From IMG/VR virus record IMGVR_UViG_3300022751_000020, positions 1 through 50,498 of that record: a DNA stretch of 50,498 nucleotides. The stretch is one strand, 5' to 3'. How positions within the stretch are numbered: position 1 is the stretch's first letter; each line of letters begins with the position of its first letter. The notes beneath the pieces were generated by a model that saw only the letters and a list, made by a program, of their open reading frames with translations, was not told the origin of the DNA and did no database searches. This DNA is from a virus. This document shows, piece after piece, positions 5,854 through 50,498 of the stretch. The position numbers and the translations under genes are program-made.

Positions 5854-6087
5854 TGTAAGACTAGTCCTAGGAGCTAGAGGGACCAAAATGAGCCTTACGA
5901 GCATTGTGGCCTTTATATACGTGCGCGCGTAAGAGTTCCTGGAGAAACTAATTACATCCTTGGACCAGATAGAGTTAGGCGTTTGAGCACGTAGGCCCTA
6001 AAACGTAATGGCAGCGGGGCAAACGGCCCCAAGCACCAAACCCAAGTCCACCCCGGCAAGCGGGCAGGACACAATGTGGAGAATATC

Positions 6088-6696
6088 ATGACCAAGAACA
6101 CCAATGCGAACCGCAAGCCTGTTGAACCCGTGACCAACGAACCTGTCACCGACGGCGGCGCGCCGATCACCCCGATCGTTCCTGATGCTGACCCGGCACC
6201 TGCTCCAGCAGCTGTTGTCGTTGACCCCTTCGCCGACGTCCCGGTCATTGCGCTGGACGACGATACCACGGTGCAGGATCTCACCGACGTGGTCGGCTCG
6301 CCGGCATACAAGTACACCGAGCGTGACGCCGCCGCTCGTGCCGAACGCAGCCCGATGCTGAAGAACTACAAGCACGGCGACAAGGTGCTCATCCCGGGCA
6401 ACAACCACAAGGAACTCCGCGCAGGCAGCGTTTACTCCGATATCCGCGCCATCGTCCAGTCGTTCGGTCGGGCAGGTGTTCCGGTGGTGAAGGTCATCAC
6501 AGAGCTGCGCAAGAAGCAGATCGGCAACAAGCGTTCCAAGTACTGCGAATCGCTGCCTCCGATCGGTTGGGCAGAAGGCTGGCTGGACACCGCCATCACT
6601 AAGGGTTTCGTGAACATCCATGCTACCAAGACGGCGCCGAGCCGTCGGGTGGAAGCAGCGCCTGAAGCCGAACAGAAGAAGATCGCCAACGGCTAA
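6088..6696 (+). CDS. Hypothetical protein with Pro/Ala-rich N-terminus (202 aa)
   Basis: First rightward gene after the divergent region. ATG 6088 has GTGGAG six bases upstream, so it is preferred over GTG 6076. Residues about 1-55 are a low-complexity Pro/Ala/Val segment; after that comes a folded part with KHGDKVLIPGNNHKELRAGS and a basic stretch GVPVVKVITELRKKQIGNKR that could be a helix-turn-helix-like or nucleic-acid-contacting region. The C-terminus is charged and Ala-rich. Function unknown; the position suggests an early protein. Confidence 0.75.
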   Translation: MTKNTNANRKPVEPVTNEPVTDGGAPITPIVPDADPAPAPAAVVVDPFADVPVIALDDDTTVQDLTDVVGSPAYKYTERDAAARAERSPMLKNYKHGDKVLIPGNNHKELRAGSVYSDIRAIVQSFGRAGVPVVKVITELRKKQIGNKRSKYCESLPPIGWAEGWLDTAITKGFVNIHATKTAPSRRVEAAPEAEQKKIANG

Positions 6697-11755: not shown

Positions 11756-11811
11756 GGTCCTCCTCAGCTCAGTCTGGCACGGTCCTCCTCAGCTCAGTCT
11801 GGCACGGTCCT
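11756..11811 (+). repeat. 25-base perfect tandem repeat (2.2 copies)
   Basis: The unit GGTCCTCCTCAGCTCAGTCT plus GGCAC occurs at 11756-11780 and 11781-11805, followed by the start of a third copy. Its core CTCCTCAGCTCAGTCT matches CTCCTCAGATCAGTCT just after the amber tRNA (from 14841) at 15 of 16 positions. A unit length not divisible by three argues against coding. Confidence 0.85.
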
Positions 11812-11838: not shown

Positions 11839-11884
11839 GTATCATGCACCAGTGCGGCCCTAGTGCCCTAGTGCTTAGGCCCTA

Positions 11885-11922
11885 AGCGCATTTATTTTAG
11901 CCTAAGTGCAAATAAATGCGCT
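11885..11922 (+). repeat. Leader hairpin
   Basis: AGCGCATTTATTT (11885-11897) pairs perfectly with AAATAAATGCGCT (11910-11922), about 40 bases after the predicted transcript start. The following TTAGGG is not a strong T-run, so an attenuator or stability hairpin is as likely as a terminator. Confidence 0.65.
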
Positions 11923-12002
11923 TTAGGGCTTTACAGGCCTAAAAACCGCCACTAGGTAAAGGGCAGGCAACACGGTGTTGCCCTAGGGCCTAGCCCCTAC
12001 CA

Positions 12003-12035
12003 CTAGCACAAGGTACAAAGTAACATGGCACAAGC
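12003..12035 (+). repeat. 33-base direct repeat, copy 1 (leader and start codons)
   Basis: Identical to 12692-12724. It spans CTAGCACAAGGTACAAAG, then TAAC, the ATG and the codons for Ala-Gln-Ala. The ribosome site is AAGG, a form that avoids GA. The identity of both leader and first codons implies recent duplication or gene conversion. Confidence 0.9.
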
Positions 12036-12516
12036 TGCAACCAAAACCGCCCCCGCTGCAACCCCTGCAACTGTTGTTGTAAACCCCAATGCGGCCATTG
12101 CCGCTACCCTTGCAGCGCAAGCGCATAACGTGCTTACAATGGGCACCGCGCCCCTTACGGCTGCAAGTATTGCGCGCAAGTACACTAAGGGCCTTGCACC
12201 GGCCTTTGCCGCGCGCACCTTTACCCTAACGCCCGCTGGCCATGCGCTTATTGCCAACAATGGCCTAAACGCGCACGGCAGGCTAACGGCTATAGGTGCA
12301 ACATGCCTTGCGCTTGGCATTGCCAGCAACGGGGGCAACAGTGCAACAGGCGCGGCCATTGTTACGGCCATGCTAACTAGCCCGGCTTGCTTGGCGGCAT
12401 TTTTGGGCACTAAGGCTAACGGTGTACACTTTACCGCAAGCAACCCGCCAACGCCCGGGTTTGCCGCTGGCTATGTTAAGGGCCTTGCAATGGCCAAGCA
12501 CGGCCTTGCCAAGTAA
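12025..12516 (+). CDS. Asp/Glu-free Ala-rich basic protein (163 aa)
   Basis: The 163-residue product MAQAATKTAPAATPATVVVN and onward contains no Asp or Glu, because every GAN codon is excluded by the island. Ala, Thr, Gly, Asn and Leu dominate; charge comes only from Lys, Arg and His, so it is very basic. All Ser codons are AGY, all Phe codons TTT, and the stop is TAA. After an unstructured first 25 residues there are amphipathic stretches (LTAASIARKYTKGLAPAFAA, ALIANNGLNAHGRLTAIGAT) that read like a folded helical domain. No homologue is recognised; DNA or RNA binding is an inference from charge. Confidence 0.7.
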   Translation: MAQAATKTAPAATPATVVVNPNAAIAATLAAQAHNVLTMGTAPLTAASIARKYTKGLAPAFAARTFTLTPAGHALIANNGLNAHGRLTAIGATCLALGIASNGGNSATGAAIVTAMLTSPACLAAFLGTKANGVHFTASNPPTPGFAAGYVKGLAMAKHGLAK

Positions 12517-12583
12517 CAAGCACAAGGGGCGCGCGGCATGTGCTGCGCGCCCTACACGCAACACAAGCACAAGGTTTAATGTT

Positions 12584-12682
12584 ATGCGCTACTATACCCT
12601 AGTTGCTATGCGCGCCCTAGTATGGGGCGCGGCGGCCCTTAGCTGGCCTATTGCCCTAATGGTCGGCAACGCTGTATTTTAA
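12584..12682 (+). CDS. Small membrane peptide in the GA/TC-free unit (32 aa)
   Basis: ATG 12584 follows CACAAGG, the same ribosome-site type as its two neighbours. The product MRYYTLVAMRALVWGAAALS plus WPIALMVGNAVF has one hydrophobic span and a basic N-terminus. Its Val codon GTC (12662-12664) contains the only TC of the whole island. It is short but well placed between two sibling genes. Confidence 0.55.
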   Translation: MRYYTLVAMRALVWGAAALSWPIALMVGNAVF

Positions 12683-12691
12683 CCCGCAACC

Positions 12692-12724
12692 CTAGCACAA
12701 GGTACAAAGTAACATGGCACAAGC
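12692..12724 (+). repeat. 33-base direct repeat, copy 2
   Basis: Perfect copy of 12003-12035 placed at the start of the third gene of the unit, again covering CTAGCACAAGG, spacer, ATG and first three further codons. Confidence 0.9.
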
Positions 12725-12944
12725 AAACGCCTATAACGTAGCATACCCTAGCGCCGCCGCATTTGCGCGCGCCACCCGCTACTATGCCCCCGCCCCACGC
12801 AAGGCAAAGGGTTGCGGCCCGGCGCGTAGTATGCGCGCGGCCCTAACGGCCAAGGGCCTATTGCCTAGCCTAGTGCAAGGCTGGCTTAACGTAAATGCAA
12901 GGCGCGCGGCTAAGGGCTTGCCGCTTGTATGGCCTAGCGCATAA
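12714..12944 (+). CDS. Asp/Glu-free basic protein (76 aa)
   Basis: The product starts MAQANAYNVAYPSAAAFARA and is Ala-, Arg- and Tyr-rich with no Asp or Glu. Lys and Arg clusters (YYAPAPRKAKGCGPARSMRA, NVNARRAAKGLP) make it strongly basic. It shares leader and first four codons with the 163-residue gene, then diverges. Stop is TAA. Its length and charge suit a small nucleic-acid-binding protein, but this is inferred from composition only. Confidence 0.65.
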   Translation: MAQANAYNVAYPSAAAFARATRYYAPAPRKAKGCGPARSMRAALTAKGLLPSLVQGWLNVNARRAAKGLPLVWPSA

Positions 12945-12968
12945 ACGCCCACACAAGCCCCAAGCGTT

Positions 12969-12998
12969 GCGCCCGCTACTACCCCTAGCGGGCGCTTT
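12969..12998 (+). terminator. Terminator of the GA/TC-free unit
   Basis: GCGCCCGCTA (12969-12978) pairs perfectly with TAGCGGGCGC (12986-12995) around a seven-base loop, followed by TTTGC. It comes 25 bases after the last stop codon and also lacks GA and TC. Confidence 0.65.
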
Positions 12999-13118
12999 GC
13001 TATGCGCGCCCTACGGCCCTTGCAGGCGGGTATAGGGCCTAGGGTACACGGTACCTCGGCGGGGTATACCCCCGGCCCACCCTGCGGCCCTCAGTGAATG
13101 TTTCAGTAAATTCATTTC

Positions 13119-13137
13119 TCGAAAATAATTATTTCGA
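13119..13137. repeat. AT-rich inverted repeat, possible operator
   Basis: TCGAAA (13119-13124) and TTTCGA (13132-13137) flank ATAATTA. It lies 25 bases upstream of the -35 box of the next promoter, a usual place for a regulator site. Confidence 0.5.
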
Positions 13138-13160
13138 AAATCTCAAGGAACAATTAACCC

Positions 13161-13980: not shown

Positions 13981-14473
13981 GGATACCCCGAAGAAGACCA
14001 TCTCGCTGGAGAAGATGAGAGATAGTCTTCTCCGGCGGGTCTCTCGAGAGAAGTACAATAGTCGTGATTTCTACTCATCTGTAATCATGGATCTCGAGAC
14101 CTGTACCCCGGAATCTTTCGCCCAAGAGTATCATGATCTCTTCGACGATCAATTCGCCTTCAAGTACAACACTAACGATAGGAACTACCCTATGACCGAT
14201 ACCGAACACACCACGCTCACTGCCGAAGATTCCGAGCAGAGCATCCACATCCTGATTCGCGCTTCCCAGGAAATGGTCTCTGACTGCGACCCAGAAGCCG
14301 CTTTGGGCTTTGCTCGCGCAGCCGAGAAGTGCGCCGGTGCTCTTGCATCTCTGACCTACCGCGCTCAGTCCTGTGAAAATCACGAGCAGCATATGCTTGC
14401 GCGTCAGCGTGGGGAACAACTCTCCCAGGTCAAATCCGGCTCTGGCCTATCACCTTCGCTTCAAGAGGACTAA
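13973..14473 (+). CDS. Hypothetical acidic protein (166 aa)
   Basis: ATG 13973 (MPEDTPKKTISLEKMRDSLL) overlaps the upstream stop. Predominantly helical, Glu/Asp-rich, with Cys at ETCTPES, DCDPEA, EKCAGA and QSCENH. A well-placed internal ATG at 14191, after TAGGA, could give a shorter 94-residue product (MTDTEHTTLTAEDSEQSIHI), so either start may be the real one. Followed directly by the tRNA region. Confidence 0.6.
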   Translation: MPEDTPKKTISLEKMRDSLLRRVSREKYNSRDFYSSVIMDLETCTPESFAQEYHDLFDDQFAFKYNTNDRNYPMTDTEHTTLTAEDSEQSIHILIRASQEMVSDCDPEAALGFARAAEKCAGALASLTYRAQSCENHEQHMLARQRGEQLSQVKSGSGLSPSLQED

Positions 14474-14481
14474 CTGTCCCG

Positions 14482-14562
14482 TTCCCCGCAGCTCAGCGGT
14501 AGAGCAGCCTGTCGTGCGCACATCAGGTTATGTCGTTGGTTCAAATCCAACCGGGGACACCA
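14482..14562 (+). tRNA. tRNA-like sequence with enlarged anticodon loop
   Basis: A D-arm GCTC-AGCGGTA-GAGC, a T-arm GTTGG-TTCAAAT-CCAAC, an acceptor stem of six good pairs (TCCCCG/CGGGGA) with a mismatch at the first pair, and an encoded CCA end are all present. The anticodon arm is odd: stem GCCTG/CAGGT encloses 12 bases instead of 7, so no anticodon can be assigned. His (GTG) or Asp (GTC) ancestry is conceivable. It could be a degenerate tRNA or a tRNA-like RNA with another role. Confidence 0.6.
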
Positions 14563-14564
14563 AG

Positions 14565-14639
14565 ATTCGCAGGGTTCATTCCCTGATCCATCTCCGGGTG
14601 GGTTGGAGGCTATCGTAACAGACGTCCCGCCCTGCGAAT
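14565..14639 (+). repeat. Perfect 10-base inverted repeat enclosing 55 bases
   Basis: ATTCGCAGGG (14565-14574) and CCCTGCGAAT (14630-14639). The whole element is 75 bases, about tRNA size, and begins three bases after the preceding tRNA-like CCA. I cannot fold a cloverleaf inside it. Confidence 0.6.
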
Positions 14640-14640
14640 A

Positions 14641-14681
14641 TCAGCCCCTACGTTGTGAGTCGTGTCCGACGTAGGGGCTGA
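14641..14681 (+). repeat. Strong hairpin, 13-base-pair stem
   Basis: TCAGCCCCTACGT (14641-14653) pairs perfectly with ACGTAGGGGCTGA (14669-14681), followed by TTACTTCTTC. It may be a terminator with an imperfect T-tail or an RNA-processing hairpin between the two tRNA genes. Confidence 0.75.
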
Positions 14682-14693
14682 TTACTTCTTCAA

Positions 14694-14767
14694 ATCAGGG
14701 CATGATCACCTCTACCCTGTAGCTCGTCCCAGACATGATCACCGCTGTCTGGGACGAGCGCCCTGAT
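14694..14767 (+). repeat. Long two-part hairpin before the amber tRNA
   Basis: Outer arms ATCAGGGC (14694-14701) and GCCCTGAT (14760-14767) and inner arms GCTCGTCCCAGAC (14722-14734) and GTCTGGGACGAGC (14747-14759) are perfect. CATGATCACC occurs twice, at 14701-14710 and 14734-14743. The structure abuts the tRNA start at 14770. Confidence 0.75.
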
Positions 14768-14769
14768 CT

Positions 14770-14842
14770 GGCTCCGTCAGCATAACGGTAAATGCCTCGG
14801 CCTCTAACACCGAAGATGCGGGTTCGAATCCCGCCGGAGCCT
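14770..14842 (+). tRNA. tRNA with CTA anticodon (amber suppressor)
   Basis: Acceptor GGCTCCG (14770-14776) pairs fully with CGGAGCC (14835-14841). T-arm GCGGG-TTCGAAT-CCCGC is perfect. D-arm has a three-pair GCA/TGC stem. The anticodon stem TCGGC/ACCGA (one C-A mismatch next to the loop) encloses CTCTAAC, giving T33, anticodon CTA at 14804-14806 and A37. CTA reads UAG. The CCA end is not encoded (CCT follows). The amino acid it carries cannot be read from sequence. Confidence 0.85.
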
Positions 14843-14902
14843 CCTCAGATCAGTCTCGAATGGTCACCCAGCGCCCCTCCCTACCGCTCTAGCCCAAGTC
14901 AC

Positions 14903-14931
14903 TTGCATCCCTTAACAGAGGCTGCTAACCC
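14903..14931 (+). promoter_or_regulatory. Promoter of the structural operon
   Basis: TTGCAT (14903-14908), 17-base spacer, TAACCC (14926-14931), 31 bases before the portal start codon. Confidence 0.45.
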
Positions 14932-14962
14932 TGCCTGAGATACTCAGCCGTAGGACCACACC

Positions 14963-16549
14963 TTGACCGATCCAACAGCCTCCGCATACGCACGAACGGG
15001 TTCAGAGAACCACTACTCGTACTGGAGTCATCCGGTCAAGCAAGTTGTCGTCACCGGCTACTCGTTTGAACAGCCTAACTCATACGCCACCATGTCCCCG
15101 ACGTGGACCACGCTTCGTGACTGCTACGGCGGCGAAGGTCGTGTGAAGTCCCGTGGTAAGATCTATCTCCAGAAGTTCTCAGCTCACAGCGAAGACGACT
15201 ACACTTCGTATCTGCGTCGTGCGTACTTCTACAATGCTGTTCGTCGTACTCACACCGGTCTCATGGGTTCGCTCTTCCGCAAGCCTCCCGAGTTCACGAT
15301 CCCGAGCGCTGTGAAGTTCGACCAAACGAACATCACTCTGGATGCTGAATCCCTGAGAGCTTTCTCCAAGAAGATCGGCTTTGAGCTACTCCTGGTGGGG
15401 AGGTACGGCGTCCTCGCCGACTTCAAGGACAGTAATGCGGACGAAGCCTACCTGACAGGCTACGACGCTGAGAATGTCTACGGCTGGCGTCAGATCGTTC
15501 ACAAAGGCCGGAAGATTACTGACCGCGTCGTTCTCATTGAGAATGAAGTCACCCTCACCGAATACGGCTCCGAGTCTGTGGAAATATACCGCATCCTCCG
15601 GCTGGACCCAGATCCCGAGTTTCCAGGCGAACTGCGCTACAGCCAGGAGATCGTGCGACCGAATGCTGCGAATATCGCCGGCACCCCGATCTCTACCAAG
15701 ATTCCGTACGCGGCCAAGGGTGGGCGTCCTCTACGATACATCCCCTTCGTGTTCTTCAATCCGATGGACCTGCTTCCGGATGCGAAGCTGCCGATCCTCT
15801 ACGACATCGCCACGATGAATCTGACGCACTACACCTCAACCGCTCAGCTAGAGCATGGTCGCTTCTATGCTGGTATGCCGACTTACGTTACCTCGGGCGA
15901 TCTGTCCGAGCACATCCCGGGAATAGGTTCTCCTAACGCTCCCCGGACTGTCGGCCCGAGCTCAATTTGGGAATTGGAAAAGGATGCAAAGGCTTGGCTT
16001 CTCGAGTTCACGGGACACGGACTAACATTTCTGGAAAACGCCGTAGACTCCAAGCAGCTTCAGATGCAAAGTCTCGGGGGGCGCTTGATCTCATCGACGC
16101 GGCGAGCAGCCGCGCTGAGCGACGAAGCATGGCAACTTCTGGAGACGGGCGACGAAGCGACTCTGCTTGACGTAGCCGAGGTCCTGGACGAAGGTCTTGC
16201 TCAAGCGCTCAGCTATCTAGCTCATATCCGCGGGGATATTTCCGACCCTGAAAAGTCAGGTATCGTGGCTGAGTTCAACAAGGAGTTCGTCCGCTCCGAG
16301 CTTACGGCTCGCGAATTGCGCGCACTTCAGTCCCTGTACGAGCGGGGAATCATTCCGCTGGACGTCATGTACTATGCTCTTCGCGAAGTCAGCGTGATCC
16401 CGGTCGAATACAGCCTGGAAGACTTCACAGCATTGATGAAGAAGAAGGATCAGATCTACGAGGCTCCTCCACTTCCAGCCCCGGCTGGCCCCGGCCCAGG
16501 AGTTCGCCCGCCTAAGAAGACCCTGAGTCTCCCCAAGAATGGAGGGTAA
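14963..16549 (+). CDS. Portal protein (DUF4055 type)
   Basis: A 528-residue protein whose order of motifs fits DUF4055 portal proteins: RRAYFYNAVRRTHTGLMGSL (residues about 85-105) then FRKPPEF, ELLLVGRYGVLADF, YDAENVYGWRQI, and the later core IPFVFFNPMDLLPDAKLPIL with DIATMNLTHYTSTAQLEHGR. The C-terminus is a Pro-rich tail. Portals form the dodecameric vertex ring through which DNA enters. The start is a TTG with TAGGA upstream. The usual upstream terminase genes are absent here; tRNAs and hairpins precede it, so the terminase must lie outside the window. Confidence 0.85.
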   Translation: MTDPTASAYARTGSENHYSYWSHPVKQVVVTGYSFEQPNSYATMSPTWTTLRDCYGGEGRVKSRGKIYLQKFSAHSEDDYTSYLRRAYFYNAVRRTHTGLMGSLFRKPPEFTIPSAVKFDQTNITLDAESLRAFSKKIGFELLLVGRYGVLADFKDSNADEAYLTGYDAENVYGWRQIVHKGRKITDRVVLIENEVTLTEYGSESVEIYRILRLDPDPEFPGELRYSQEIVRPNAANIAGTPISTKIPYAAKGGRPLRYIPFVFFNPMDLLPDAKLPILYDIATMNLTHYTSTAQLEHGRFYAGMPTYVTSGDLSEHIPGIGSPNAPRTVGPSSIWELEKDAKAWLLEFTGHGLTFLENAVDSKQLQMQSLGGRLISSTRRAAALSDEAWQLLETGDEATLLDVAEVLDEGLAQALSYLAHIRGDISDPEKSGIVAEFNKEFVRSELTARELRALQSLYERGIIPLDVMYYALREVSVIPVEYSLEDFTALMKKKDQIYEAPPLPAPAGPGPGVRPPKKTLSLPKNGG

Positions 16550-36900: not shown

Positions 36901-37050
36901 GGTAATGAAGACCACTATCTCCCGATGCAGGGGAGAATATGGATCGGGACAGCCGGTAGCAAGACTGTGTCTATTGAGGTTGCAGGTGCGGTGGGTGTGT
37001 CATTGAATCCTGGTGCCGCTTCTCTAGTGACTATCAGGAGGTATCGTTGA
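33958..37050 (+). CDS. Tail hub/central tail tip protein (1,030 aa)
   Basis: ATGA overlap with the tape measure gene. The first 400 residues resemble phage tail hub or distal tail proteins (VTYLFEATPYDPSLPGLRNV, SYGDYSTLFVGRTLEATADG, FQWNEFLDTIATSINGYWYL). Residues about 430-600 hold Ig-like segments (FEVLPGSASGITIDSTGAIF). Residues 760-900 form a helical region with repeated INEIREIV-like elements and a lambda gpJ-like fibre stem. The last 150 residues are a beta-domain with GQGYAFRLMVDGNEVQSGTG. It likely forms the tail tip and links to the receptor-binding proteins. Confidence 0.75.
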   Translation: MSRVTYLFEATPYDPSLPGLRNVNFSSGLLEETIPGSSASFPVRLAETFSYEVTIFSDGNPGSTSTSIGTCVVNNVDGRFDHLLLHNWDDRPLVIKQGIRGQSYGDYSTLFVGRTLEATADGTNLVFSLKDNGAKLIKMAQTLTYLGTGGKEGGADLRGLEKPLLYGDVRNANPVLVDPIRLTYQFSTDPLTSITGIYNRAIPLTFSADYPTYAHLLAAPLLPGSYSSCRAEGFIRLGAPPDGLLTGSVRGPKYSDFLGNMARLILKNKGGFVDADFDLTSFNQLDTDFPYDFEGMYYRQPTFQWNEFLDTIATSINGYWYLSRTGLIRLEQFKFRTPSAVIRSEDMVNLSRVSSPAPVKKVKVDYARNPHVVDTSEYTIPRSTFNGFISKSHQFIQTDSNGSGGTYVTDAVFKVFLDDEQINDLGLVTFEVLPGSASGITIDSTGAIFFPTSGSVSRTATLRANFGEYAVDANFTVTKSMGSLKRIELSSNRNHILISDSGALEGNQDVTVTVTTTGTTLTSLTVEDNLGNFYTPTNNGNGTYTFSTSQILPIQLAYWLVWKAYDSVGLKQSIQTRIRRGTVAPVILPIRPGSNEIRLTIYQRSITEPALPSVNAVFSFITGHTTGLNNGWLERIPPINGLPVWTSDVLLNTSGTTMTITPGLWSPVKTAAPTVAQQIIDLFNITEINTDSILSQVIHMDELEVVLDARTLVEGQPVSVKFLEFRGSQITENTATAYTLGLLGAETEDGTAFILNMNNVKVSPDKTLAQRFSEVGVIAENASAGYTELANLIATESGVRAEVISQLTASFNTNNTLVTASINEIREIVIGPDGPEARAVLQVDAFGNLAGIVTSANELIGRIGIIAGLTEICAPDGSVLASFSQVGSLAYISNLLVDKVAFNSVGTEQLLDDSVTAASQASNGASWSGSGIGTYVAVVSYTVNLAYPGDLILIGSLQLTHAGQGYAFRLMVDGNEVQSGTGNEDHYLPMQGRIWIGTAGSKTVSIEVAGAVGVSLNPGAASLVTIRRYR

Positions 37051-37418
37051 GTAATTTCTTCATAGGTGTGCCCGGCGAAAAGCCTCGTCTTCTCGTCAAT
37101 GATCTCCGGAGTGCGAAAGAACTTTGCGAACCGGGCGACGTGATCATAAAGAGCGACGAGGTTAAAGACTTCCTAATCGCTAAAGATGGGAGATCTTTAA
37201 CTACAGCCCCTGTCAGTATAGATCTAGAGAAGTCAATACTTCGCGCTCGCAGGAACGCCTTACTGGCAGAAACCGACTGGACCCAGCTTGGGGACAGCGC
37301 ACTAACGAAGAAGAAGAAAGACGAATACCTAGCTTACCGCAAGTCTCTTCGGGATATACCGGAGATCCAAGCTGGAAAGAAAGTAGAAGACATCGTATGG
37401 CCGAAAAAGCCTGCCTAA
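37047..37418 (+). CDS. Tail fibre assembly-like protein (123 aa)
   Basis: TTG start in a TTGA overlap with AGGAGG upstream. The C-terminal half contains RARRNALLAETDWTQLGDSA, then KKKKDEYLAYRKSLRDIP, the signature of small phage tail proteins and tail-fibre assembly chaperones (RN.LLAETDWTQL.D......EWL.YRQALRDIP). The N-terminal 60 residues form a separate small domain. Placed just before the tailspike gene, it may help to fold or attach it. Confidence 0.75.
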   Translation: MSNFFIGVPGEKPRLLVNDLRSAKELCEPGDVIIKSDEVKDFLIAKDGRSLTTAPVSIDLEKSILRARRNALLAETDWTQLGDSALTKKKKDEYLAYRKSLRDIPEIQAGKKVEDIVWPKKPA

Positions 37419-37435
37419 GATACTGAGGATTTACA

Positions 37436-40177
37436 ATGGCCTTATCTCAACAAGTTCTTGACGCTCTAACCAATCTAGTCGGTCGCTGGAACACTCGCGT
37501 CAACGAACTCTCAAACTGGTTTGCAGGAACGGCCACTGGTGGTCCGGGTAATGACGGTATGTATCCGTTCACAGACGCGGCCGGAACCCAGACTCTTAAC
37601 CCGAGTATCGCTAAGATCATCTCTGATTCGGGTCTTGCAGGAGACTCGCATGAGCTACTGATCGTGGGTCACTTCAGTGATATTGCGAATGCGACCGTTC
37701 CTGTCACTAAGAGCACTATCATGACTCTGGGCTACTACGCTCCAGCAGATAGTGGTAACGCTCTGTATGTACGAGTGAATGCCTCGGCAGCCACACCCTA
37801 CTCTCATCTATACCGAATTCAAAGCGCTGATGGTCAGTGGTGGGAATATTCCGGAGACACCGCATGGGTTGAGCAATTCGGTGCTGTCGGTTACCACGCT
37901 CGGAAGTCTGTCCCCAATTCAAATATCCACGACAGCCTGATCAATTTTCAGGCAGCGATAGAATGGAACCGGAGTCGTACTCAGGGTATGATCGGCAGCC
38001 GTTCTTACGGTCGGTATATGTTCTCTGACACTCTTGTGATAGATCCTTCACGAGAAGGCTTTGAAGGGAACTCCTGCGTTCTCGACTGGAGGCTAAAGAC
38101 TTTCTATGATCCAGCAGCCCAGCCCGAACTTATCACCAATCCTAGCTTCAACAGCGGCGTGACAGGCTGGACTGTAACCACTAACACGACAGTTGCCCCG
38201 GTATTCACTGACGGTCGTCTAGACTTTTACCCACCCAATGATCCGGAATCTACCGAGTATCTTGAAATAGGCCAGATGGTCACTTGCGCCGTCGGCGACA
38301 CTCTCATGATAGAGGTAGAGTTTGAAGAAATCCGAACTCGTCAAGTTTCCTTCAACACCTTTCGTAGTGTTCTGTTCACCTTGCGCCGAAATAATGGTAC
38401 TTCGGCAAACAACAACATCGGAATCGGACCACTTCAGACTACTCTCGGTACTGCGACTAATCTACAGTCTCAATACGCTGCGGGTAAGATATTTCGTTAC
38501 ACTGCTTCTGTGGCGACTGCTAATCCCTATCTACGTATTCAGACCAACGCCGACGTCTCAATCAAAAGTGTTTCGGTTAAGGTTAAGCCGAAGAACACCT
38601 GTATTCTTCTTCGCACTAGCAGCGTCGCCGAAGGTGGTCAGCTTCGCGGTCATAACTACAAGGATATGCGCAACTTCAAGATCACCGGCAAGGCCGGGGT
38701 AGAACGCGATTGGGGCGTCGGGATGGAGCTCGATACGCCACACGATGGTCTGTCCAGTCGTGTCAACATCTACAACATGGACATCTCAGACAACCTTGGT
38801 ATCGGCCTACTGTTCGGCAACCGAGCATACCTGATGAACTTCTACTCGTGTCGTATTGTTACTCGAGACATCAATATTGACAGCTATACCCAGACTGACG
38901 ACGCAGGTGAGAACATCGTGTTCTACGGAGGCAACTCGGGCGGCGGTCGTATCGGGGTTCGTAATGAAGGTGCTATGGCACTTTACTTCTTCGGTCATTC
39001 TATTGACTTCGCAGGTGAAAGCTGGCTGGTAGGGGGTCTTATCCACTTCGAGGCTGGGTGGTTGGAAATCAACGTCAACAGTATTGATCCAGGTGAATAC
39101 TTGATCAAGGCTACCAAGGGTACGATCTCACTCAGTAAGACTCGTATTACCTTCGGCGGGTCTGCTACTGAGGAGCCTGTCGGGGAAGCAGCATACTATG
39201 TCGCCAAAGGCGCGATCCTTAAGATGGATGTGCTGTATCCGTATAACTCTCGTGGTTACTCAAAGGCTATGTGCGCCGGCGAAGGTCGGTTCGAGCACAA
39301 CAGTCTCGGCGGCGAAAACAAGGCGATCTCCTCAATCGCTATGCGTAACGTAGATCACAACATCCTCGGTCGCGCAGGGTATTTTGAAGGGACCAAACCC
39401 GGCTTCCTGATGTGGACGGAATCTACTGACGCTCGGTCACAAATTAGTCGGGAGCTTGTCGGTTTTCACACTGTTGCTAATACGACCTCTACTTTCTACA
39501 GAGGGCAGCGACTCATCACCGTCGCCAGCACGGCTGGCATGAGTATCGGCTGTGTGGTGACCGGCGACGGTATTCAGCCAGATACGATAGTCCTAGTCAT
39601 TGATCCTATAGCGAAGACTCTCGTCTTGAGTAAAGCTGTCGTCAAGTCGGTCACAGATTCTACCGTAAGAATCGGCAGCCCTAACCCTTCTGGCATAGCT
39701 GGATTTGAGTTGAGTAACGTGGATCATCGTACAACCGACAACGCGGGTGTCCAGGGACTTCACATCTTCAAGCAGGGCATTGGCGGCATCGGCTCTCTTA
39801 AGCTCCAGTTCGCCTGTCCTATTGACGCCTTTCGCACAGTCGGCGCAGAATGGTTCTACAAGATTCCTGCTGGCGGAAGTGGTACAGCCGATGTCTACTT
39901 CACTTCGTACTTTGCGAATATCTATGACAACGGAGATAAGACGCCGTACATAGCTCAGCAGCAATTCATCAGTGATCTTCCGCAAACCGATCTTGATCTT
40001 GTCGCTGGCACTGACTGGATTCGGGTATCTAGTTCTACTGGTCGCATCGACGATAGTACGATACACGACGGGTACAGTCCATTCTGGGCTACTCACTTCC
40101 TGGTCACTCTCAACATGGCTTCAGCCCCAAACGGATTCCAGATGTTCATGGATGATTATCACGTTAATATGATCTAG
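37436..40177 (+). CDS. Tailspike with pectate-lyase-like beta-helix (913 aa)
   Basis: N-terminal 90 residues are an attachment part. Residues about 98-145 read MTLGYYAPADSGNALYVRVN, then QSADGQWWEYSGDTAWVEQF and GAVGYH, the standard neck of phage tailspikes before a right-handed beta-helix. INFQAAIEWNRSRT follows, the first helix cap. Residues about 215-380 contain an inserted carbohydrate-binding-like domain (ELITNPSFNSGVTGWTV, a CBM pattern). The rest is beta-helix repeats and a C-terminal domain. Such proteins bind and often cleave surface polysaccharide. It ends in TAG. Confidence 0.8.
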   Translation: MALSQQVLDALTNLVGRWNTRVNELSNWFAGTATGGPGNDGMYPFTDAAGTQTLNPSIAKIISDSGLAGDSHELLIVGHFSDIANATVPVTKSTIMTLGYYAPADSGNALYVRVNASAATPYSHLYRIQSADGQWWEYSGDTAWVEQFGAVGYHARKSVPNSNIHDSLINFQAAIEWNRSRTQGMIGSRSYGRYMFSDTLVIDPSREGFEGNSCVLDWRLKTFYDPAAQPELITNPSFNSGVTGWTVTTNTTVAPVFTDGRLDFYPPNDPESTEYLEIGQMVTCAVGDTLMIEVEFEEIRTRQVSFNTFRSVLFTLRRNNGTSANNNIGIGPLQTTLGTATNLQSQYAAGKIFRYTASVATANPYLRIQTNADVSIKSVSVKVKPKNTCILLRTSSVAEGGQLRGHNYKDMRNFKITGKAGVERDWGVGMELDTPHDGLSSRVNIYNMDISDNLGIGLLFGNRAYLMNFYSCRIVTRDINIDSYTQTDDAGENIVFYGGNSGGGRIGVRNEGAMALYFFGHSIDFAGESWLVGGLIHFEAGWLEINVNSIDPGEYLIKATKGTISLSKTRITFGGSATEEPVGEAAYYVAKGAILKMDVLYPYNSRGYSKAMCAGEGRFEHNSLGGENKAISSIAMRNVDHNILGRAGYFEGTKPGFLMWTESTDARSQISRELVGFHTVANTTSTFYRGQRLITVASTAGMSIGCVVTGDGIQPDTIVLVIDPIAKTLVLSKAVVKSVTDSTVRIGSPNPSGIAGFELSNVDHRTTDNAGVQGLHIFKQGIGGIGSLKLQFACPIDAFRTVGAEWFYKIPAGGSGTADVYFTSYFANIYDNGDKTPYIAQQQFISDLPQTDLDLVAGTDWIRVSSSTGRIDDSTIHDGYSPFWATHFLVTLNMASAPNGFQMFMDDYHVNMI

Positions 40178-45063: not shown

Positions 45064-45909
45064 ATGGCAGCTAAGAAGGACGATACTCCGGCCCCAGACG
45101 AGGCCACAGAATCCACCGCTCTAGCGGCTTCCCAGACAGGTACGGATCTCTTGGACAGCGAAGAGGATGATTTCTTCTCCGGTGCCGGCGAGGGGCTTGA
45201 GGACTTTGAACAGTCCGACATGCTCATTCCGTACGTTCGCATCATCCAAGCACTTTCCAAGGAAGTGCAGAAGAACCATGCGAAGTACATCAAGGGCGCC
45301 GAACAGGGCTTCTTCGTCAACTCAGCTACTCGCAAGCTGATGGACGGTGAAAAGGGCTTCCTCGCTATTCCGGTGAGCTTCGGCCATCGCTATATGGCCT
45401 GGAAACCGAACAACGGCGGACCAGCACACGATTACGGTGATGATCCGACGGTGTACAACGCGACTCCCGAAAATGAAAAGCGTAAGCGAATTGATGCCGA
45501 CGGCAATGAACTCGTAGACGCTATGCAATACTTCGTGATTCTCGTCGATGAAGAAACCGGCGAGTACGAAATGGCGGTTCTCAACTTTGCTGCGAGTCAG
45601 GCAAAGAAGGGTCGTGGATGGGCCAGTACCATCAACAATCGCATGGAACGCCATCCTGGAACGGGTAAAACTATCCGTCCAGCGATCTACTTCTACTCGT
45701 ACAAGATCACCACTCAGCCCGAATCCAACGATCAGGGCTCTTGGTACGGATTCCTCATTGAGGAAGGTGCGAAGGTGAAGGATCTTCCCAACGGAAAGGA
45801 AATCTTCACTCAGGCAAAGCAACTCCGCGAACGGATTACCGCTGGCGAAGTGAAGGCAGCGGTGGAAAACCCTGCCGATGACGACAACGACGGAACCACC
45901 GCGTTCTGA
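45064..45909 (+). CDS. Putative ssDNA-binding-like phage protein (281 aa)
   Basis: AAAGGA before ATG 45064. An acidic N-terminal tail (LLDSEEDDFFSGAGEGLEDF) precedes MLIPYVRIIQALSKEVQKN, GAEQGFFVNSATRKLMDGEK and a beta-rich core GFLAIPVSFGHRYMAWKPNN. The end is very acidic (PADDDNDGTTAF), as in single-stranded DNA-binding proteins. The family is common in siphophages next to helicase, exonuclease or coiled-coil genes and is thought to act in DNA metabolism; the ssDNA-binding role is inferred. Confidence 0.7.
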   Translation: MAAKKDDTPAPDEATESTALAASQTGTDLLDSEEDDFFSGAGEGLEDFEQSDMLIPYVRIIQALSKEVQKNHAKYIKGAEQGFFVNSATRKLMDGEKGFLAIPVSFGHRYMAWKPNNGGPAHDYGDDPTVYNATPENEKRKRIDADGNELVDAMQYFVILVDEETGEYEMAVLNFAASQAKKGRGWASTINNRMERHPGTGKTIRPAIYFYSYKITTQPESNDQGSWYGFLIEEGAKVKDLPNGKEIFTQAKQLRERITAGEVKAAVENPADDDNDGTTAF

Positions 45910-45937
45910 TACTTTCAACCCAAGAAGGAATATGAAG

Positions 45938-46561
45938 ATGGCTGTTAAGTTGGATACTGATAAGAAGCTGTTTCTCGGTGCTACTCCCGTTCGTGAAGGC
46001 ACCGTGCAGGACGTTGTTCGTCAGACGGTCCGTGATCTGAACGGCGGCGACGGCGTAAGCTACGCAGAGCTGGAAACTCACATGCTGGCGAACTTCACTC
46101 CGAAGAAGTCGGATAACTACGGTGCGCCGTTCATCAAGGCATACGTTCGCGACGCCGTGAACAAGTATGGCTATCTGTCGCACGAAGATCTGGGTCTGGA
46201 ATACTCGACAATTGCGGCCACTCCCAAGGCGGCGGCTGAACCGAAGCCTAAGAAGCTGACCAAGGCCCAGCAGGCTGAGATCGACACCTTGAACTTCATC
46301 GTGACCAAGGGCGAAGTGCTCGACTCCGCTGATCTCGACGGCACCATGATCACTGTCCAGGACTTCGTCACCGAAACCGGCAAGAAGACCAAGACCGTTG
46401 AAAATAACCTCGCCAAGCTGGAAGCTGCTGGCCTGATTCGTACCGAGGAAGTCGACGGCAACGAAGAAGGTACAAAGGTGACCTACGTCTATCTGACCGA
46501 AGCTGGTTACACCCATGCTCAGTCGGCGTCGGCGCCTGCTGCGGAAGCTGAAGCAGCCTAA
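45938..46561 (+). CDS. Winged-helix-like DNA-binding protein (207 aa)
   Basis: ATG 45938 (MAVKLDTDKKLFLGATPVRE) lies eight bases after AAGGA; the ATG at 45932 is too close. The N-terminal half has VRQTVRDLNGGDGVSYAELE and FIKAYVRDAVNKYGYLSHED, a helical domain like those of DNA-binding phage proteins. After a Lys/Ala linker, residues about 115-180 (VQDFVTETGKKTKTVENNLA, KLEAAGLIRTEEV, TKVTYVYLTEAGYTH) form a MarR/ArsR-type winged helix. It could regulate transcription of the modification genes that follow. It ends before a strong terminator. Confidence 0.7.
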   Translation: MAVKLDTDKKLFLGATPVREGTVQDVVRQTVRDLNGGDGVSYAELETHMLANFTPKKSDNYGAPFIKAYVRDAVNKYGYLSHEDLGLEYSTIAATPKAAAEPKPKKLTKAQQAEIDTLNFIVTKGEVLDSADLDGTMITVQDFVTETGKKTKTVENNLAKLEAAGLIRTEEVDGNEEGTKVTYVYLTEAGYTHAQSASAPAAEAEAA

Positions 46562-46634: not shown

Positions 46635-47519
46635 ATGCTTGATAATTTTCAGACTTTCGTTCACTATCTGAACGAGCGAGAATCAATTCGTCAGAAACGC
46701 GAGTCCGGCCTTGATGGTCCCTGGACGACCGACCCAATCCTCAACAAGTATAAGTTCACCAACGTCCTGCGAAAGTACGATCGTACTACCCGCTGGCTGG
46801 TCAAGAACTGGTACGATCCCAATCGCGATGCGCCTGCTGATGTTCAGATCTTGAACTGTGCTATCGCCCGCTATTTCGGGCACCAGGACTTCCTCGGTGC
46901 GATCGGCTATCAGCATACTTGGGATCCCGAGCATCTTCTGAAGACCGCCAAGGATCGCTTGTCTCGACGCGAGAAGGTCTTCACCGGCGCGTACATCATC
47001 ACGAATGCTGGCAGTACCGACCCGAAGCAGAACGTCGTGGTCAACCAGTTCCTTTCCCCACTCCGGATGAACCTAGACCAGCTCGTCCGACTCTGCGAGC
47101 AGGGTTCTTGGCAGAATGTCGCCGAGTTTCTTCAGACTCTTCCGGGCATTGGTCCGTTCATGTCCAAGGAAATTGCGCTTGACATGATGCTGTGCCCTGT
47201 GCTAGAGAATGCCAAAGACAAGCTGACATGGTCGCCAGTTGGTCCTGGTGCTGTTCGGGGCCTGAACCGTCTTGCCGGTCGACCGATTCAAACTGCTATG
47301 AAGCAGGTAGTGGCACTACACGAAATGCGTGTTCTCATGGGTCGACTATCCACCGAAGGTCACTTCAAAGACTATATGCCTCAGATCGGCGTAGAGTTCG
47401 GCGTTACTGACGTTCAGTTCAACCTGTGTGAGCTAGACAAGTATCTTCGGGTGCAGAACGGCGAAGGTCGTCCACGTTCGGGCTACGACTGGAAGAAGGC
47501 GAGGGGGTTAGAGCTGTGA
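46635..47519 (+). CDS. 5-hmdU DNA kinase-helical / thymine pyrophosphorylase-group protein
   Basis: The 294-residue sequence carries the pattern I know from phage proteins of thymine hypermodification: FQTFVHYLNERESIRQKRES, WTTDPILNKYKFTNVLRKYD (residues about 29-49), then RTTRWL. A helix-hairpin-helix-like LPGIGPFMSKEIALDMM lies at 169-185, and GPGAVRGLNRLAG follows. Relatives are the HMUDK helical domain and the alpha-glutamyl/putrescinyl-thymine pyrophosphorylases, which act on 5-hydroxymethyluracil in DNA. No Walker A P-loop is present, so this is not a complete kinase. Exact reaction is uncertain; the glycosylase-like HhH supports base-level DNA work. Confidence 0.78.
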   Translation: MLDNFQTFVHYLNERESIRQKRESGLDGPWTTDPILNKYKFTNVLRKYDRTTRWLVKNWYDPNRDAPADVQILNCAIARYFGHQDFLGAIGYQHTWDPEHLLKTAKDRLSRREKVFTGAYIITNAGSTDPKQNVVVNQFLSPLRMNLDQLVRLCEQGSWQNVAEFLQTLPGIGPFMSKEIALDMMLCPVLENAKDKLTWSPVGPGAVRGLNRLAGRPIQTAMKQVVALHEMRVLMGRLSTEGHFKDYMPQIGVEFGVTDVQFNLCELDKYLRVQNGEGRPRSGYDWKKARGLEL

Positions 47520-48394: not shown

Positions 48395-49225
48395 ATGCAA
48401 ATCTTCATACCTACGCGAGATCGCGTAAACGCTCAATTTACCTGGGATAACCTAGGCCCAGAACTCCAGCCATTTACCCGGCTAGTGTGCCCGCCGGAGG
48501 AGCTCGACGACCATCTCGAACGTGGTCGAAGCGCGGTCGCACGGCCCCCGGTGCGGTTGGCCGCTGTACGCCAATGGATTGTCGACGAGCTTTCTGACAA
48601 GGCTCAACCAGTTATCATGTGCGACGATGATCTGGCGTTCTTTGTGCGTAAGGATCCTAGCGCGCACAATCTACGTCCGGCTGGAGCTGATGTCTTCGGT
48701 ATCTTCGCTAGACTTCATACTCTCGTTGCAGTCGGAGAAAATAACTCGCAGGGTGGAGTATTTTCCATATTCAATCACGCCGGACTAAGCCCTCGCCAAG
48801 GCAACAACTGGTCCTTCCCAGAACGCTTCAACATCAATGATCGCATGAATGCAGTCCACTGTGTCTGGGGCGATGCACTTCGACACTACGGCATTCGCTA
48901 CGACGACGTTGATATGATGGAGGACTACCATGTCACACTCAGCCTGTTCGAAAGAGGTGAGAAGTCAGTCTCTATCGTCGACGCGGCTTGGGACCAGTGT
49001 AAAGGATCCGGAGCTCCAGGTGGCTTCTCACATTACCGGACGGGTGAAACTCAATCCGCTGCCGCTCACAAACTGGCCGCGCTCCACCCAAACTCCGTTA
49101 AGGTCGTGCAAAAGAATCCTTCAACCGGTTCTGGTGGATTTGCCGGTGTCCGCGATGATGTGCGGGTGCAGTGGAAGCAGGCTTACAACAAAGGAACTCG
49201 GAGCCCGACTTTTAGCCGAGATTAA
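48395..49225 (+). CDS. Glycosyltransferase resembling the TET-associated type (276 aa)
   Basis: AAGGAG before ATG 48395. Residues 1-80 read MQIFIPTRDRVNAQFTWDNL ... VRQWIVDELSDKAQPVIMCD, a GT-A-like nucleotide-sugar fold with strand-loop IPTRDR and the metal motif CDDDL at residues 76-80. Later conserved-looking parts are NDRMNAVHCVWGDALRHYGI and DDVDMMEDYHVTLSLFERGE, where MMEDYH resembles the ED catalytic motif of family-2-like enzymes. Phage TET-associated glycosyltransferases add sugars to hydroxymethylated pyrimidines in DNA. No TET gene is in view, so here hydroxymethyluracil is the likely acceptor; this is inference. Confidence 0.75.
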   Translation: MQIFIPTRDRVNAQFTWDNLGPELQPFTRLVCPPEELDDHLERGRSAVARPPVRLAAVRQWIVDELSDKAQPVIMCDDDLAFFVRKDPSAHNLRPAGADVFGIFARLHTLVAVGENNSQGGVFSIFNHAGLSPRQGNNWSFPERFNINDRMNAVHCVWGDALRHYGIRYDDVDMMEDYHVTLSLFERGEKSVSIVDAAWDQCKGSGAPGGFSHYRTGETQSAAAHKLAALHPNSVKVVQKNPSTGSGGFAGVRDDVRVQWKQAYNKGTRSPTFSRD

Positions 49226-49498: not shown

Positions 49499-49744
49499 GT
49501 GGCCGATTGCAACATATGTAAACGAAAGCTAGATAATCCAGAAGATGACTACTCCACGGACTGTGGAGGCGACTGCGTTTGGTGCATGGCGGTGGTCGCT
49601 GAAGATCCCGACTGTATTGAATCTGTAGCCAAAATAGCATGGAGTAACATGGTCGACGCTGCCCGGTGGCAGACCTATGGGATTACCAAAGAACTCGACT
49701 TTCTAGACAAATACTTCAAGGATAAAGAAAATGCCACAATTTGA
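49499..49744 (+). CDS. Cys-rich zinc-binding-like protein (81 aa)
   Basis: GTG 49499 with AAGGAG six bases upstream. Cys at residues 4, 7, 22, 26 and 29 (NICKRKL, DCGGDCVWCM) form a CxxC...CxxxCxxC arrangement that could bind one or two zinc ions. A helical C-terminal part (IAWSNMVDAARWQTYGITKE) follows. It overlaps the thymidylate-synthase-like gene by 14 bases, suggesting coupling. Confidence 0.7.
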   Translation: MADCNICKRKLDNPEDDYSTDCGGDCVWCMAVVAEDPDCIESVAKIAWSNMVDAARWQTYGITKELDFLDKYFKDKENATI

Positions 49745-50498
49745 AATCAAAGAACTAAACCTGGGACTGAACCAAGTCCTGATGGATCTAGCTATCTGGA
49801 ATATTGCAGAAGACTCTCGTAACGGGCCAGTACTCCGATTCCCAGAGCCGACTACAATCAAGTACACTGATCCTTGTCGTCGTCTGCTGACCAATCCTGT
49901 CCGGGATGCCAACCCGTTCTTTCATCTGTTTGAAACGATGTGGATGTTCGCCGGCATGAACCAGATTGAGCCTCTACTTCTATTCAATCCGAATATGATG
50001 CAGTACTCGGACGACAGTAAGGTCTTGCGCGGGACGGCCTACGGTCATCGCTGGCGTCGGGAATGGGGTGACCAATTGCTGGAAGTCGTTCGTCAGCTGA
50101 CTGAGAATCCCAGCAGTCGACAGATAGTCATGTCTATGTGGAATCCGACAGACCTGTTCCTGAAGAATAGCAAGGACTTCGCCTGCAATCTCCAGGTGTT
50201 GTTCAGTACTCGGCCCACCGAGAATGAAATTCTGGGTCGCCGAATCCTGGACATGACCGTGACCAACCGTAGCAACGACATCGTCTACGGTGCGCTCGGC
50301 AGCAACGTGTTTCACTTCTCGATGTTGCTGGAGTATGTTGCTTTTCATTCCGGATTGCTAGTCGGTAACTACTACCAGATCGCCAACAACCTTCATCTCT
50401 ACACCGAGAACGAAGTGTCTAGGCGATGCTACAGCGCGAGGGAAGAACTTCCACGCCTCTCTCCTTCGGCAGATCATAGCTTGACCGAGTTCGGCTTA
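49731..50498 (+). CDS. Thymidylate synthase / dUMP hydroxymethylase-like enzyme (C-terminus off window)
   Basis: ATG 49731; 256 codons are open to the right edge. TS-family landmarks are present: NPFFHLFETMWMFAGMNQIE near the N-terminus, TAYGHRWR, SRQIVMSMWNP, the active-site Cys in DFACNLQ (C152), R180-S-N-D183 in VTNRSNDIVYGALGSN, and NNLHLY. The Arg-Ser...Asp block and an Asn after Gly (GALGSN) resemble uracil-specific members, with one extra residue compared with the usual GLPFN. In phages with modified thymine this fold makes 5-hydroxymethyl-dUMP. Context with the 46635 and 48395 genes favours that, but plain thymidylate synthase cannot be excluded without the C-terminus. Confidence 0.8.
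   Translation, partial: MPQFEIKELNLGLNQVLMDLAIWNIAEDSRNGPVLRFPEPTTIKYTDPCRRLLTNPVRDANPFFHLFETMWMFAGMNQIEPLLLFNPNMMQYSDDSKVLRGTAYGHRWRREWGDQLLEVVRQLTENPSSRQIVMSMWNPTDLFLKNSKDFACNLQVLFSTRPTENEILGRRILDMTVTNRSNDIVYGALGSNVFHFSMLLEYVAFHSGLLVGNYYQIANNLHLYTENEVSRRCYSAREELPRLSPSADHSLTEFGL

Follow-up and report, generated by a model that had tools for sequence, protein, structure and literature searches.

Phages of the M6/YuA, ViI and phiW-14 type, which hypermodify thymidine through the 5-hmdU kinase pathway, are among the closest described systems to the locus reported here. Their T is modified in TG/TC contexts: M6, ViI and phiW-14 resist restriction at TG- or TC-containing sites, from which a preference of the kinase for these pairs was inferred by the authors (PMC6449724). 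The hypermodification enzyme of the CmoX carboxymethylcytosine phage, Synechococcus phage S-B43, recognises bare GC (PMC12783734); together with the TG/TC contexts, this makes dinucleotide specificity a known property of such enzymes. With E. coli RNA polymerase, transcription from 5-hmdU templates phosphorylated by 5-HMUDK reaches only 37% of the normal level (PMC6457204), and bacterial RNA polymerase is usually blocked at promoters by bulky pyrimidine modifications (PMC11550810). In vitro, transcription still proceeds on templates that contain 5-glucosyl-hmC (PMC11550810); it follows that a sugar is not necessarily a block to the polymerase.

The window analysed here (the whole stretch of phage DNA, 50,498 bases) contains an island in which GA occurs zero times and TC once, at 12663, where base composition predicts 72 and 74, about 146 in total. 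This recount agrees with the preliminary description, which gave zero GA and one TC in 1,212 bases against some 150 expected. The flanking TCs at 11842 and 13056 bound the island, and the coordinates 11844-13055 are therefore exact. The GA/TC-free gaps within it measure 821 and 393 bases, with geometric chance expectations of 4e-57 and 1e-25, and the runner-up gap in the window is 62 bases. The depletion is local, as first described: GA/TC odds are 1.25 over the whole record, the pair being enriched outside the island, and 600-base windows have mean odds of 1.28 (sd 0.13). This excludes a depletion running through the whole genome, the result that the preliminary description had named as refuting. 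GA/TC density is normal straight from the island edges, where the flanks begin abruptly; the idea that the flanks are extra rich in GA/TC was dropped, as the pattern is inconsistent. No other dinucleotide class has a comparable desert anywhere in the window. The parts of the island and the start of the structural genes downstream are as follows; G005, G002 and G008 represent three further lineages of related phages, all four being uncultivated.

11844-13055, no strand: GA/TC-free island, by recount; homologous islands in G005, G002 and G008
11877-11930, plus strand: 21-nt inverted repeat in the operon leader (arms 11877-11897 and 11910-11930), without a sequence counterpart in the other lineages
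12025-12516, plus strand: gene A, 163 aa, no Asp or Glu, 10 Lys+Arg; homologues in all four lineages
12526-12553, plus strand: GC-rich hairpin directly 3' of gene A (z -3.6)
12583-12681, plus strand: hydrophobic ORF of 32 aa, containing the sole TC
12714-12944, plus strand: gene B, 76 aa, no Asp or Glu, 11 Lys+Arg; no known family
12969-12995, plus strand: terminator-like hairpin 3' of gene B (z -3.8)
13048-13140, plus strand: conserved border element, GGTACC ... CCTCAGT.A ... TCGAAAATTC, from the four-lineage alignment
14963-16549, plus strand: portal protein (DUF4055), first of the block of structural genes that follows the island

The three genes originally proposed for this unit reduce to two that are conserved, A and B; the third, the 32-aa ORF, is found in the window phage only. 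Across the lineages gene A encodes 163-173 aa and gene B 76-77 aa, and both proteins lack Asp and Glu throughout while carrying 10-15 Lys+Arg each; in conserved G008 proteins Asp and Glu together make up a median of 12.6%. The proteins have no acidic residues because all four Asp/Glu codons begin with GA. Gene A is preceded by an AAGGT-type ribosome-binding sequence; GGAG and GAGG contain GA and are impossible inside the island. For both genes dN/dS is below 1 in every lineage pair and the differences cluster at third codon positions, which argues that A and B are both translated. The hairpins behind the two genes differ in sequence but occupy the same places in all four lineages, with z of -2.9 to -4.0 behind gene A and -3.6 to -5.5 behind gene B in the other three; with the dN/dS values, they show that the operon is expressed. 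A confident sigma-70 promoter was not found inside the island. The border element lies partly outside the island and includes the first TC past the ban.

Searches of Pfam, PHROGs, the phage collection and, at sequence level, the PDB place neither A nor B in a known family, and AlphaFold2 models have a mean pLDDT of 39 for gene A (unusable) and 61 for gene B (moderate). A resemblance noticed by eye between the C-terminal W-A-x-G-[WY] of gene A and the 227-aa HTH protein of the window (45878-46561) was rejected, as its profile score is below those of shuffles. When the profile was compared with 46 phage families, a 206-aa protein (6076-6696) ranked first at 19.5, the next scoring 16.8; the maximum of 40 shuffles was 16.5 and p = 0.036 before correction, and this protein therefore counts as no more than a lead.

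Several further elements were noted. About 40 bases upstream of the island, at 11756-11805, a TC-rich unit of 25 bases (GGTCCTCCTCAGCTCAGTCTGGCAC) is perfectly duplicated in tandem; G008 has a different tandem repeat, of 21 bases, at the equivalent position. A tandem pair of segments of ~450 bases each, 67% identical, is present in G002 at 14419-15445. Upstream of the portal gene, a tRNA with the anticodon CUA, which reads the TAG stop codon, is found at 14770-14844 on the plus strand (Rfam, 58 bits); a second tRNA-like sequence at 14482-14563, also on the plus strand, has a TTCAAATCC loop and a 3' CCA and is not called by ARAGORN or Rfam. TAG terminates 4 of 37 conserved complete genes in the window phage, versus 24 of 97 in G008 and 28 of 85 in G005, and no tRNA was found in the parts of G008 and G005 scanned; amber suppression or incipient recoding in the window phage is possible. 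Between the island and the portal gene, a protein with a signature of the type CEFSGIVRDAF ... HPPCTYL is conserved in G005 and G002 (L035 3150-3914, minus strand; L036 5271-5858, plus strand; L056 1-372, minus strand) and absent from the window and G008; it looks DNA-methyltransferase-like by eye and has no Pfam match at E 1.

The HMUDK_hel protein of the window phage led to contigs of which two matched the 163-aa island protein, and the fourth lineage was found with a profile built from three island-protein homologues. GA exclusion in homologues, a point raised at the outset, extends to all three: the island of G005 is 1,102 bp with no GA/TC, that of G002 is 570+682 bp with one TC, and that of G008 is 1,070 bp with none. 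Each of the four lineages thus has one island, with 0-1 GA/TC per 1.07-1.25 kb, placed 3' of a block of small genes and 5' of the portal/head genes. G008 comprises 91,890 bases with a terminal repeat of 127 bases, for which reason the genome is probably complete, and contains exactly one island. G004 and G006 are the G002 phage (100% identity), and the island of G011 has identical gap lengths. Between lineages the island proteins share 35-78% identity, and the islands differ from one another at 323-542 aligned positions. Substitutions placed at random to this extent would give a mean of 90-137 GA/TC where 0-1 are seen, and the ban is therefore actively maintained. Searches with gene B, the portal protein, HMUDK_hel and the major capsid protein added no lineage, giving fragments that end short of the island, further finds of the four lineages and distant desert-free phages; the locus is covered by these four lineages, and the remaining relatives are fragments that stop before the island.

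The ban had also been read as a symmetrical rule on double-stranded DNA, and this holds. Since GA is the reverse complement of TC, a single rule of this kind accounts for the loss of both. The 489 bases of non-coding DNA in the island contain 1 GA/TC against ~76 expected, and the same proteins written with the codon usage of these phages would contain ~42 (41.7) GA/TC in gene A and ~17 in gene B, where 0-1 and 0 are observed. Since non-coding sites and synonymous choice alike obey the ban, the rule acts on double-stranded DNA and is no protein or codon effect. It also far exceeds the avoidance of any single restriction site, as was first argued. Restriction-site avoidance resembles it in that short DNA words are lost by selection; here, by contrast, the word has two bases and its loss is near-absolute, confined to 1.1-1.25 kb, with the pair enriched elsewhere. 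Site depletion through the whole genome was not found, and restriction-site avoidance was rejected as an explanation.

The window phage encodes three candidate DNA-modification genes near the end of the record:

46635-47519, plus strand: HMUDK_hel (PF18723, 4.5e-42), homologue of M6 gp55; candidate DNA-hypermodification enzyme
48395-49225, plus strand: TAGT glycosyltransferase (PF20691, 1.1e-7); candidate sugar transferase for hydroxymethyl-pyrimidine
49731-50498, plus strand, cut by the record end: thymidylate-synthase homologue, 43% identical to M6 gp58; candidate dUMP hydroxymethylase

The HMUDK_hel / aGPT-Pplase1 domain protein (PF18723) is also present in G002, G005 and G008, and its combination with TAGT (matched at 1.6e-12 in G008) and an M6-type thymidylate-synthase homologue is found in every lineage with adequate coverage. 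G002, G005 and G008 additionally encode an HD nucleotidase and a family A DNA polymerase (PolA), and G008 a dUTPase; the members of the cluster are homologues of M6 gp55, gp58, gp59 and gp62. Identities are 32-37% to M6 gp55 for HMUDK_hel and 36-43% to M6 gp58 for the thymidylate-synthase homologue, which, among the enzymes compared, is closest to that of the M6 thymidine pathway. A 652-aa protein of G008 (36976-38934; L028 16976-18934) has weak partial matches to B12-dependent ribonucleotide reductase.

These phages thus share HMUDK_hel, thymidylate-synthase, HD nucleotidase and PolA homologues with the M6/YuA, ViI and phiW-14 type, whose reported TG/TC contexts include the banned pair (PMC6449724). 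They differ in having the TAGT glycosyltransferase instead of the P-loop 5-hmdU DNA kinase: PF18748 has no match in G000, G002, G005, G006 or G008, although it does match M6 gp54 and ViI gene 061, and the chemistry here is therefore not M6 chemistry. TAGT is common to these phages and the TET/TAGT cytosine-hypermodification phages, but the TET/JBP dioxygenase is absent from all four lineages searched. 7-Deazaguanine (DpdA) phages such as CAjan are reported to be modified at GA, and a GA-directed modification would yield the same ban; unlike them, the four lineages searched have no TGT/DpdA-family gene. CmoX phages (S-B43) differ in both base and enzyme, and the accessible text of their report mentions no modification-free island (PMC12783734). 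No dinucleotide-free island is found in the parts examined of cultured phages that carry related genes, namely the HMUDK_hel phages M6, RHph_TM26, Bhz59 and CN2 (50 kb each), ViI (first 50 kb) and the TAGT phages LuckyBarnes and ctUhy936, or in those of the HMUDK_hel phage G016. Hypermodification alone therefore does not demand an island, and there must be a further requirement, perhaps the particular modification made here. TG, the other reported modification context, is not avoided. Outside the island, T before C at codon junctions reaches 1.18-1.71 times the synonymous-shuffle expectation (z 9-38), compared with 0.92-1.28 in ten other phages; this excess is in line with selection to keep modification sites numerous in the bulk of the genome, and a host codon-pair habit could contribute to it.

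It is proposed that the operon is kept clear of a TC-directed base modification so that A and B can be transcribed, a reading to which we give an even chance, with the uncertainty over which base is modified included in that grade. That the island is a modification-free zone of some purpose, whether for transcription of A/B or for another DNA transaction, is probable. In the proposed mechanism thymidine in the phage DNA would be replaced by 5-hydroxymethyl-dU, and the HMUDK_hel/TAGT system would then place a bulky group on T preceding C; 5'-TC-3' would be modified through the genome (GA on the opposite strand) and the island would be a blank zone. Natural selection would purge TC/GA sites from the operon, such that A, B and their regulatory DNA would never carry the modification, not even as the phage DNA enters the host. 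Host RNA polymerase, invoked because no RNA polymerase was found among the large G008 proteins scanned, could transcribe A/B ahead of the machinery for coping with a modified template, or without relying on it. A and B are small cationic proteins and may be regulators of transcription on the modified genome; their location just 5' of the structural gene block suggests a regulatory role. The fuller statement, that these phages hypermodify TC, leave one control operon blank and use the acid-free A and B to help switch the modified genome on, falls a little short of an even chance.

Other explanations place the ban on a different molecule or give it a different origin. A by-product of selection for acid-free proteins or of odd codon usage would be in keeping with the lack of Asp and Glu in A and B, but it is refuted by the codon and non-coding counts given above, and its probability is practically negligible. 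Were the A-B mRNA evading a host or phage RNase or toxin that cuts GA/UC, the ban would suit a region clearly transcribed as a two-gene operon; one enzyme would however have to cut both GA and UC in one strand, the ban reaches 181 bases 5' of gene A and 60 bases beyond the terminator-like hairpin, and it is exactly symmetrical under strand exchange (GA 0, TC 0-1), all of which makes an RNA-level ban improbable. Some deaminases favour TC, and the islands have an excess of TT and AA, as would be expected if GA/TC had been removed by mutation, for example through a TC cytosine deaminase acting on double-stranded DNA and aimed at the operon. Deamination lowers GC, yet the islands are GC-richer (0.59-0.65) than their respective genomes (0.51-0.57); the excess of TA and GC is as large as that of TT and AA, the pattern predicted by plain exclusion, and no trinucleotide is excluded beyond those containing GA/TC. 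With flanks abruptly at normal density and neither lowered GC nor TC-to-TT/GA-to-AA scars found, a TC-deaminase-mutated region was rejected, and mutational removal is considered highly improbable.

The remaining alternatives keep the island unmodified. The island may be left blank for another DNA transaction, such as initiation of replication or packaging, recombination or the binding of a dedicated protein; the non-coding DNA on either side of the genes is banned as well, the 3' edge has the conserved border element, and the sequence is hairpin-rich. Such sites usually span tens to a few hundred bases, however, whereas the ban covers two whole genes; the complete relative G008 has no cumulative GC skew minimum at the island, and its terminase large subunit is distant, at 35.5-36.9 kb. 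A purpose of this kind is rather unlikely. It is unlikely that the island is modification-free with respect to a different base, namely the C of TC or the G/A of GA, for instance where GA carries a 7-deazaguanine or TC a glycosylated hydroxymethyl-C. The ban is silent on which base of the pair is modified, and TAGT, whose name refers to glycosylation that follows TET, is encoded next to a pyrimidine hydroxymethylase in ctUhy936; set against this are the lack of TGT/DpdA and TET family genes in the four lineages and the relation of the thymidylate-synthase homologue to the M6 thymidine-pathway enzyme.

The preliminary description knew of no phage element like this one, and no operon under an absolute dinucleotide ban is described in the open-licence literature searched. 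As far as can be told, the sequence-encoded blank operon is a new kind of feature; the cause inferred for it falls within established ground, the hypermodification of phage DNA. A dinucleotide-free gene kept across deep divergence is a natural footprint of the effect of DNA modification in the cell, and A and B are two functional protein families that have evolved wholly without aspartate or glutamate. The island also opens to experiment the question of how transcription of heavily modified phage DNA begins when the host polymerase is unmodified. If an operon exempt from TC-directed modification is the correct reading, the TC specificity of an uncharacterised hypermodification system would be readable from sequence alone, phages would have to exempt certain genes from their own DNA camouflage, and the genome would be divided by its sequence into a modified bulk and a permanently unmodified control operon.
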